A DNA stretch of 64,000 bases. Origin: a virus. The notes under the pieces are model-generated. The model was not told the origin of the DNA. It was given only the letters and a program-made list of their open reading frames with translations, and did no database searches. The position numbers and the translations under genes are program-made. The stretch covers positions 1 through 64,000 of the IMG/VR virus record IMGVR_UViG_3300042362_000298; one strand, given 5' to 3'. Shown piece by piece: positions 2,892-58,845 of the stretch. Positions within the stretch are counted from its first letter, which is position 1, and every line of letters starts with the position of its first letter.

Positions 2892-3248
2892 CTACACCAC
2901 CTGGTAACAGACCGTTGCCAGGCCGCTACCAGGGTGAGCGATGCGAGCAAAAGCGCCATAGCTCAGGTCGAGAATCCTACCACCGTACCAAGGGCCTCTA
3001 TCAGTCACCTTGACGATTACGCTCCGACCATTGCGCACCACTCTCAAGCGGGTGCCAAGCGGAAGCGATGGGTGGGCAGTGATCATGGCTCGCGGGTTCA
3101 TTGGCTGACCATTGGCCATTGTCTGGCCTGCAAAGCCATCGCCGTGACCGTAGAAGCTGGCTTCGCCGCAGCGAGACTTAGCCTCCGCAGCAGCAGGCAC
3201 CAGAGCGCCCAAGACAACGGAAGCTGAAAGAAGAAAACGAAAAAGCAT
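2892..3248 (-). CDS. RlpA-like double-psi beta-barrel protein, exported
   Basis: Start at ATG 3248 (MLFRFLLSASVVLGALVPAA): a signal peptide with likely cleavage after AEA. The mature domain matches the RlpA/DPBB pattern: GEASFYGHGDGFAGQTMANG, then NPRAMITAHPSLPLGTRLRV, then VTDRGPWYGGRILDLSYGAF. The DRGP and LDLS motifs are intact. Bacterial RlpA proteins act on peptidoglycan, some as lytic transglycosylases. Here it could weaken or remodel the host wall. It has its own leader hairpin (copy 6) and terminator. Confidence 0.75.
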   Translation of the reverse strand: MLFRFLLSASVVLGALVPAAAEAKSRCGEASFYGHGDGFAGQTMANGQPMNPRAMITAHPSLPLGTRLRVVRNGRSVIVKVTDRGPWYGGRILDLSYGAFARIAHPGSGLATVCYQVV

Positions 3249-3279
3249 CAGGAAAGAAAAAGAAGAAGTGAGACTACGG

Positions 3280-3291
3280 AGGGTCGCCCCT
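3280..3291 (-). promoter_or_regulatory. GCGA-tetraloop leader hairpin, copy 6
   Basis: AGGG-GCGA-CCCT on the minus strand, 32 bases before the RlpA-like start codon, followed by a long pyrimidine tract (CTTCTTCTTTTTCTTTCC). Confidence 0.5.
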
Positions 3292-3322
3292 GCCAAGGTT
3301 TACCGTATCACAATTGCGGGGC

Positions 3323-3353
3323 TTGCTGCCGTGGCTGGTAGTGGTGCTATGAT
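3323..3353 (+). promoter_or_regulatory. Extended -10 promoter for the RNA gene
   Basis: TGC-TATGAT (TATGAT at 3348-3353) is an extended -10. TTGCTG at 3323-3328 is a possible -35 with a long 19-base spacer. Transcription would start near 3360, exactly at the closing stem of the RNA. Confidence 0.5.
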
Positions 3354-3359
3354 TTGCAA

Positions 3360-3552
3360 GCTTGAGTTGGTCCTGGCCGAAAGGCCCGTCGCTGACGCCG
3401 CAAGGGTGGACGCTGCTGAGCACTCTGGACTTTTCGCGAGGACTGTCCCTAGCATTGCATGGGCTAGTGAGAGGAGTGCTCCCCTTTGGGAGGGAGGCTG
3501 TGGCATCGGAAGCTCAAGTAAAGGAAGAAGGGCCGCAAGGCCCTTCTTTTTT
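3360..3552 (+). ncRNA. Candidate structured small RNA (~193 nt)
   Basis: There is no convincing ORF here. A closing stem of about 9 bp pairs 3360-3368 with 3511-3519 (core CTTGAG/CTCAAG). Inside are GGCC-GAAA-GGCC (3375-3386), CGTC/GACG (3387-3397) and a perfect 8-bp stem GAGCACTC/GAGTGCTC (3418-3425 with 3474-3481). That stem encloses GGAC/GTCC and CTAGC/GCTAG hairpins. The gene ends in a textbook terminator, AAGGGCC-GCAA-GGCCCTT plus CTTTTTT (3528-3552). The length is like 6S RNA, but the fold I see is branched; I cannot assign a known class. Confidence 0.65.
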
Positions 3553-3601: not shown

Positions 3602-3772
3602 ATGACTGAACAAGAACGCGAGCGTGAGCGTTTGGCACGATGGCTGAGGAATGATCCAGAATATGACGACTGGACCTATGCCACAGAGCCCATCCCTGGT
3701 GATCATTCATGGACAAAGAAAAAGGCTCCCGAAGGAGCCAGTGATCACGATGCGTCGTCCCAGTCGGGCTGA
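3602..3772 (+). CDS. Possible small protein (56 aa)
   Basis: ATG 3602 opens MTEQERERERLARWLRNDPE, a charged helix, then an acidic/aromatic stretch (EYDDWTYATEPIPGDHSW). The last third is antisense to a minus-strand terminator and the end of the gene at 3745-3921, so its reality is uncertain. It follows the RNA gene's terminator by 50 bases. Confidence 0.35.
   Translation: MTEQERERERLARWLRNDPEYDDWTYATEPIPGDHSWTKKKAPEGASDHDASSQSG
3715..3739 (-). terminator. Rho-independent terminator with UUCG loop
   Basis: On the minus strand GGCTCC-TTCG-GGAGCC is followed by TTTTTCTTT. It ends the unit of genes running from 5149 down to 3745. Confidence 0.8.
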
Positions 3773-5212: not shown

Positions 5213-5962
5213 TTAACTTTCCTCTCCATCGTCCTGTTCGCTATTCGCGAATAGCAAAGGCTTGCTGGGACCAGTGGGCTCTCCTTGTTCGTCGAAATAA
5301 GCCTCAGCGTCAATGGCAGTGGCTCTAACTTCACTATTGCTTTCAGCTTCTTTTATTTTACGAACTTCCTTGCTTAAATTATCAAGGAATGCTTTGTAGC
5401 CGCTCTTTTCTTCCGTTTGTGGCTTCACATCGAACAGGCCAATCAGCTTTGCTTGCTGCTCCAGACAGCTACGGGCAATGCCAAGGAAGCCGCTTTCGCC
5501 AGCACTTTCTTCCATGCGCACAATGGTTTCGCCAGGGCCGTCAGGCCCTTCCTTGTAAGTGGTGACCTTCTTGCGCTTGCTGTGTTCAAAGCTTTCGAGG
5601 GCTTTGTCTTTAAGCTCGCCTTGTTCTTTGATTAGCCGTGCCCGCCAAGTGTCTTGGCTCTTAAGGATTTCAGCAGTCCATAAGTTGCGGTTGTGATGAC
5701 GATCGGCGCTAACAGTTTCTTTGCTTAGCTTCAAGATGTCGGCAATTTGCCTATTGCTTAAACTTGCCGCCAAAAGCTCCTGCACCATATACCGGCGCAA
5801 TCCAGTGAGTTCTTTGGTGTAGGGAATCTTGCCCGGACCTGCTCCCACTCTGTCACGAATGTGCTCAATTTGCTGAGGCGTCATTCCAGCTTCCAGAAGC
5901 ACCTTCACGCCATATTTCAATTGCTGCTCCTTGTCCGGGAAGTCAATTTCAGGAAGGGGCAT
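5213..5962 (-). CDS. Helix-turn-helix protein, possible small terminase subunit
   Basis: ATG 5962 (MPLPEIDFPDKEQQLKYGVK); TTG 5968 is also in frame. Residues ~55-95 hold a helix-turn-helix (LSNRQIADILKLSKETVSAD) like those of phage small terminases. A long helical middle and the segment GIARSCLEQQAKLIGLFDVK resemble the oligomerisation part of that family. In that role it would bind pac/cos DNA and load the large terminase. The large subunit lies 50 kb away in the window (about 12-13 kb if the genome is circular), so a transcriptional role is the alternative. Confidence 0.5.
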   Translation of the reverse strand: MPLPEIDFPDKEQQLKYGVKVLLEAGMTPQQIEHIRDRVGAGPGKIPYTKELTGLRRYMVQELLAASLSNRQIADILKLSKETVSADRHHNRNLWTAEILKSQDTWRARLIKEQGELKDKALESFEHSKRKKVTTYKEGPDGPGETIVRMEESAGESGFLGIARSCLEQQAKLIGLFDVKPQTEEKSGYKAFLDNLSKEVRKIKEAESNSEVRATAIDAEAYFDEQGEPTGPSKPLLFANSEQDDGEES

Positions 5963-5980
5963 GGTCAATGGGCAGTAAAA

Positions 5981-58401: not shown

Positions 58402-58470
58402 GGGCGCTTCTGGGAATCGAACTCCAGGACTCTAGGCTATCTGCCTAGCGTGTGCCAACACTTAAGCGCA
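58402..58470 (-). tRNA. Degenerate tRNA-like element
   Basis: Minus strand: the acceptor GCGCTT/AAGCGC pairs, a tiny arm GTGT-TGGC-ACAC stands in the D-arm place, an anticodon arm CTAGG-CAGATAG-CCTAG (GAT in the anticodon place, but no T33), and a T arm with GTTCGATTC and one bulged A. It ends two bases before the start codon at 58400. It could be a decayed tRNA-Ile-like gene or a tRNA mimic in a leader. Confidence 0.4.
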
Positions 58471-58845
58471 AGATCGGTCCTCAGCATGGCACATGCCAAG
58501 TTCAGACCGAAGGGGAGACCACGGCATTGAACCGCGAGTGAGAGCCCATCCCTTCTCCCAAAGGCCCCAGGTTTGAGCATCGTTGAGAGGCTTAGGGGCG
58601 AACAGTCCGTCGAGCTTGCCGAATGGGTCGAGGGCTCACCAGTGGACCAGTCTGGCAGGAACGTCTTCCTGACCCGCAAACACGGGATTTAACGCAAACC
58701 AGCAACGCTCGAAAAGGACCGAACTAGAATCGACGCAGTGCCCATTCTTGCTGGCTGCACACTGCCGACAGAGCAGCAGTGATGGTGGACAGTACCGGCA
58801 GGCAAGCCCGTCGCATCTGTCGTTCGTAAGTATAGCATCAACCAC
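58462..58845 (-). pseudogene. Cysteine-rich ORF interrupted by in-frame TGA
   Basis: GTG 58845 opens VVDAILTNDRCDGLACRYCP with CPPSLLLCRQC, running to TGA 58636. The same frame continues open (LDPFGKLDGLFAPKPLNDAQ, TWGLWEKGWALTRGSMPW) to TAA 58462, with no start codon of its own for the conserved-looking part. Either a nonsense-broken gene or read-through. It starts inside the end of nrdB. A 49-aa frame from ATG 58839 is the competing reading. Confidence 0.35.

Follow-up and report, generated by a model that had tools for sequence, protein, structure and literature searches.

The window analysed here covers 64,000 nucleotides (positions 1 to 64,000) of a 68,312-base IMG/VR virus record (IMGVR_UViG_3300042362_000298). 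The virus is a tailed phage, among whose genes are those for a tape measure protein, a lambda-J-like central fibre, a portal, a head protease, a terminase, a primase-helicase, and a ribonucleotide reductase. On the plus strand, positions 3345-3552 carry in succession an extended -10 element, a branched RNA, and an intrinsic terminator (table 1). This RNA gene region is flanked on one side by rlpA, encoding a putative lytic transglycosylase, and on the other by the gene of a conserved small acidic protein. The protein encoded at 5213-5968 on the minus strand is labelled "RNase E" by PHROG 645, as is gp086 of the Synechococcus phage S-CBS4; in Pfam it gave only a weak helix-turn-helix match (GerE/HTH_38, below cut-off), and we regard this label as doubtful.

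Table 1. Features of the RNA locus and of its two flanking genes (window coordinates).
Feature	Position	Strand	Remarks
rlpA, RlpA-like double-psi beta-barrel lytic transglycosylase	2892-3296	-	PF03330, E 1.9e-22
Extended -10, TGCTATGAT	3345-3353	+	TGnTAnnnT; constant position among members
Predicted transcript	about 3360 to 3552	+	
Structured RNA core	3361-3518	+	Covariance model match 3355-3523, 119.9 bits
P1 closing stem, 5' strand	3361-3368, pairs with 3511-3518	+	5 pairs individually significant
P2, 5' strand GUCC	3370-3373, pairs with GGAC 3408-3411	+	
P2a hairpin	3375-3387	+	GAAA loop here; other members often have a UUAA-type loop
P2b hairpin, CGUC-GCU-GACG	3387-3397	+	
P2c hairpin, CC-GNRA-GG	3398-3405	+	Near-constant
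P3, 5' strand	3412-3416, pairs with 3500-3504	+	4 pairs individually significant
P4, 5' strand	3418-3426, pairs with 3473-3481	+	Encloses P5 and P6; 3 pairs individually significant
P5 hairpin	3428-3447	+	GNRA loop (GCGA in this phage); 1 pair individually significant
P6 hairpin	3449-3467	+	Conserved loop motif CAUGG at 3458-3462
P7 hairpin, CCC/GGG type	3479-3494	+	Least conserved helix; 66-75% of cells paired
AUCGGA, unpaired junction J3/1	3505-3510	+	Invariant across all aligned full-length members
Intrinsic terminator	3524-3552	+	GCAA loop, T6
Gene of 56-aa conserved small acidic protein	3602-3772	+	Motif EPIPxDxxW; downstream of RNA

A first-pass annotation, made from the letters of this sequence, had proposed a free-standing structured RNA gene of about 193 nt in which an extended -10 leads straight into a closing stem. 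Both elements are indeed in the sequence, and P1 begins at 3361/3362, that is, 8-9 nt past the -10, where transcription would be expected to start. The TGnTAnnnT element keeps its position in 56/57 members (55 detected by script and S-CBS4, TGCTACTAT, by eye), whereas it occurs in 0.7% of random slices of equal length, and a terminator lies 3' of the RNA in 58/58 members against 11% by chance; the members being related, these counts are not independent trials. The window locus has no clear -35 and the -35 region is unconserved among members, so that promoter strength and timing are guesses. As for the terminator, it has the GCAA loop and the T6 first described, on a stem that exceeds the 7 bp attributed to it.

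Taken singly, the window sequence folds no better than its shuffles (z = +0.38 over 160 nt; z = -1.59 with the terminator included), for which reason relatives were sought and the fold rests on their comparison. They were gathered from IMG/VR by searching with the neighbouring protein and with gapped DNA patterns derived from the RNA, and 42 of them were aligned on sequence only with MAFFT (alignment A2), the consensus structure being written by hand with RNAalifold as a guide. In this alignment, 91.4% of the pair cells are paired, 37 of the 51 pairs show two-sided changes, and the covariation score reaches 0.539, versus 0.203 for the shuffled control and no more than 0.147 for the slid ones. 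Since such counts may be inflated by kinship, we applied an R-scape-like test (G-statistic with average-product correction, cut-off E<=0.05) with a phylogenetic null, in which the parsimony changes of each column are re-placed on a FastTree tree. Thirteen column pairs came out as significant, all 13 within the structure (in P1, P3, P4, and P5) and none outside it.

In the resulting fold, P1, P2, and P3 meet in a three-way junction that is closed by P1, P3 leads to P4, and P4 encloses P5 and P6. The two interior elements initially drawn by eye are both part of it: the GAAA-tetraloop hairpin is GGCC-GAAA-GGCC at 3375-3386, and the 8-bp helix around two hairpins is formed by GAGCACTC and GAGTGCTC (8-9 bp, 3418-3425 / 3474-3481). 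P2 is nearly unvarying among the 42 aligned members, and in members outside the model all four of its pairs (4/4) show compensated changes (GCCC/GGGC, GUUC/GAAC, UUUC/GAAA, and GCCU/AGGC); alignments A5 and A6 are model-fitted and hence biased to the model, and the letters of the P2 strands can be read directly. The first consensus of RNAalifold had paired UCC with the GGA of AUCGGA, a pairing that we rejected because GUCC/GGAC is compensated in six members and AUCGGA is constant. Two members are without P2a and P2b. Three stretches hardly change, namely AUCGGA where P1, P2, and P3 join, the hairpin CC-GNRA-GG, and CAUGG in the loop of P6, and the helices surrounding them vary freely. A possible pseudoknot (CCG/CGG) would join P2c with AUCGGA, both sides of which are invariant.

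The fold is thus kept by compensatory changes among homologues. With regard to translation of the region, no open frame is conserved across the 42 members, only 2-3 of which are stop-free in any given frame, and member lengths vary freely modulo 3. Homologues, covariation, and genomic context all agree with the initial proposal of a free-standing gene with its own promoter and terminator, and we hold it as virtually certain that the locus is, in its anatomy, a stand-alone gene of a new structured RNA family.

This family comprises about 100 distinct IMG/VR contigs, counted by contig name, and BLAST adds one isolate, S-CBS4, where the gene is unannotated and lies between a "lipoprotein precursor" gene and a hypothetical protein gene. 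A covariance model (R1) was built from A2 and run on loci fetched by an RlpA profile without any RNA criterion, where it found additional members at the corresponding position (85-166 bits); with further held-out members obtained through other pattern variants, held-out scores span 85-167 bits. All of the held-out loci examined (25/25) have AUCGGA, CCGNRAGG, and a divergent rlpA, and an extended -10-like element lies upstream of nearly all 25. The family therefore has significant homologues outside its own model, together with the promoter element and the neighbour. The RNA recurs in highly diverged phages of a cyanosiphovirus lineage, whose RlpA neighbours are down to about 50-60% identical, and each longer phage record searched (70-74 kb) holds one copy.

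Beyond these phages, the RNA was absent from S-CBS2, S-CBS3, PSS2, S-SSM2, and AphaS-CL131, as well as from S-CREM1, DSL-LC03, S-CRM01, S-CBWM1, S-CBP4, and B23, in runs that did find S-CBS4. It was likewise undetected in 386 genomes of the cyanobacterial phylum, under strict filters and with no positive control in the run. As this draw was rich in non-photosynthetic members (Photo_RC in 1/8 sampled genomes), the search was redone on 390 genomes from the class of a psbA-bearing genome, again with strict filters and no positive control, and the RNA was undetected there too. A pattern scan of 84,980 species genomes returned only chance matches and one phage contig within a metagenome-assembled genome (MAG). 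The matches in bacterial genomes (Streptomyces and others) were dismissed as chance, the rest of the RNA being missing, and matches in Klebsiella phages were set aside as covering only 39 nt at the terminator end. The contig in question, NYTN01000042.1 (20,518 bases; L215, the same contig as L181), is binned in a Rhodobiaceae MAG and carries the RNA (79.8 bits). IMG/VR lists it as a virus contig as well; it is probably of phage origin and was placed in that MAG by a binning error of the genome collection. Overall, the family is peculiar to S-CBS4-like cyanophages, in which it is single-copy.

Known RNAs offer no equivalent. At Rfam 15 gathering thresholds, no family matches the window locus or any of 10 member loci; at E<=10, the window locus gives chance matches only (best E 0.4, at the terminator hairpin), and ARAGORN calls no tmRNA or tRNA at the RNA locus. 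The length of the gene had first suggested a 6S-like control of host RNA polymerase, in which the RNA would mimic an open promoter. A length of about 190 nt and transcription from a free-standing gene are the only likenesses to 6S RNA; the 6S model (RF00013), checked as the first-pass annotation had proposed, has no match at the window locus at E<=10, the distribution is phage-specific, and the covarying fold, with its P1/P2/P3 junction, P4 around P5 and P6, and side arms P2, P4/P5/P6, and P7, lacks the rod and central bubble of 6S RNA. The doubt that a branched fold is no single long hairpin had been raised from the outset, and we deem a 6S-like role very improbable.

A role in packaging or structure, whether pRNA-like or virion-associated, would agree with an RNA that is phage-specific, structured, present in one copy per phage, and similar in length to phi29-type pRNA. 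Yet the Rfam pRNA model matches neither the window nor the 10 member loci, this phage encodes a standard terminase alongside genes of siphovirus type (its terminase large subunit and portal are of ordinary tailed-phage families), and the RNA gene lies in a small-gene region, far from the packaging genes, all of which make such a role quite unlikely.

Other large phage RNAs, such as GOLLD and ROOL, which form oligomeric RNA-only complexes (PMC12286853), are likewise structured and partly phage-encoded, but the present RNA is far shorter, has another fold, is without Rfam match, and has a tight rlpA linkage of its own. The RNAs listed for cyanophages (CfrI, PhotoRC-II, wcaG, manA, glnA, and abiF RNA; PMC9964418) are also non-coding RNAs of cyanophage genomes, but these are antisense, cis-regulatory, or short, and already described. 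In the open-access literature, we found no cyanophage or large phage RNA that could be equated with this one; as the literature covered was open-access only, an earlier description elsewhere is possible. What is new is the RNA family and its fold, when the idea of a phage-encoded RNA is not. The window itself also holds an abiF RNA (RF03085) at 58563-58599 on the minus strand (48.2 bits, E 8e-6), near a tRNA-Ile at 58402-58470 (minus strand) that is the only ARAGORN call in the window. An abiF RNA is also present in phage S-CREM1 (PMC9964418). No AbiF gene (PF07751) accompanying the window copy was found in the record. Should abiF RNA be the RNA partner of an abortive-infection toxin, this orphan copy could serve the phage as a decoy antitoxin.

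From the perspective of gene order, the tight linkage of the RNA to rlpA, divergent and upstream at 57/58 loci in addition to the 25 held-out ones, could hint at a cis-element, one that serves the downstream small gene as a leader, attenuator, or riboswitch, or else one that regulates the divergent rlpA. This would also agree with the downstream gene being on the same strand as the RNA in 37 of the 49 loci where it was found, this window included, and with a terminator that could be an attenuator. However, in the remaining 12 loci this gene is inverted relative to the RNA and the RNA and its terminator are retained, so that no same-strand downstream gene is conserved, as would be expected of a riboswitch or attenuator, and the RNA is no leader, in line with the first reading of the locus. 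That reading had placed the RNA between two minus-strand genes, which holds on the left, for rlpA, and fails on the right, where the gene is on the plus strand here. Because the RNA and rlpA run on opposite strands, the RNA is not a neighbour's 3' UTR either.

The link with rlpA is itself strong but not absolute, and may thus reflect shared descent of gene order rather than function: on the L181/L215 contig the RNA is present and the parts read contain no rlpA, and rlpA occurs without a match to the model at four loci and others. Complements of the conserved motifs are not enriched in rlpA leaders (UCCGAU in 1/57; CCAUG in 12/57 versus 31% by chance), which argues against a conserved pairing with this leader. 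A role in controlling rlpA or the downstream gene is therefore less likely than protein binding or mRNA pairing (see below), and we view it as improbable. In the 5' leader of the rlpA mRNA (window about 3270-3300, minus strand), we also observed a small GCGA-loop hairpin (e.g., GGAGGCGACUCC, CAGGCGACUGG), which recurs at the same place in five diverged relatives; it may stabilise the mRNA or act as a regulatory site.

How, then, might this RNA act? Constant junction and tetraloop bases amid freely changing helices are usual in RNAs that are recognised in three dimensions, and it is at unpaired junction and tetraloop positions that the sequence constancy of this family sits. We tentatively favour, at somewhat less than even chances, a phage-specific structured RNA that would act in trans through protein binding. 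Under this proposal, host RNA polymerase would transcribe the RNA from its extended -10 promoter, probably early, which fits with a PHROGs scan of 20 window proteins, where no RNA polymerase was seen, although a phage polymerase or sigma factor might be among the other proteins of the window. Once folded, the GNRA hairpins and the junction, in which AUCGGA is single-stranded and invariant, could form a binding surface for one protein, either a host factor or a phage RNA-binding protein, and the RNA may serve as a decoy or a scaffold during infection. More specifically, and with a little less confidence still, it may take over or block a host function, for instance by titrating away a host protein of RNA binding, RNA processing, or defence, or by providing the RNA of a phage ribonucleoprotein.

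The main rival to protein binding is base-pairing with host or phage mRNAs, as by a small RNA (sRNA) whose fold presents the exposed CAUGG of P6 or AUCGGA as a seed. The CAUGG loop is conserved and AUCGGA is unpaired, GCAUGG could pair with start codons that follow CC, and the gene has a promoter-like element and a terminator of its own, as typical sRNAs do; conserved loops occur in base-pairing sRNAs, but also in ligand-binding RNAs. Against this, the candidate seeds are short, the rlpA leader is unenriched for their complements, and some 190 nt of mostly conserved structure with at least five covarying helices would be atypical for an sRNA. Because the conserved bases are spread over several elements, protein binding would fit better than antisense pairing, and we consider the latter rather unlikely, though a serious contender.

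To our knowledge, few phage non-coding RNAs have a structure strongly supported by covariation, and several of the phage structured RNAs already known are important, as is the case of packaging RNA, RNA cages, and anti-defence RNAs. Here, a cultured phage and its host (S-CBS4 and Synechococcus CB0101) are at hand, and the covariance model, the gene boundaries, and the invariant bases are defined, which makes the role of this RNA in infection directly testable.
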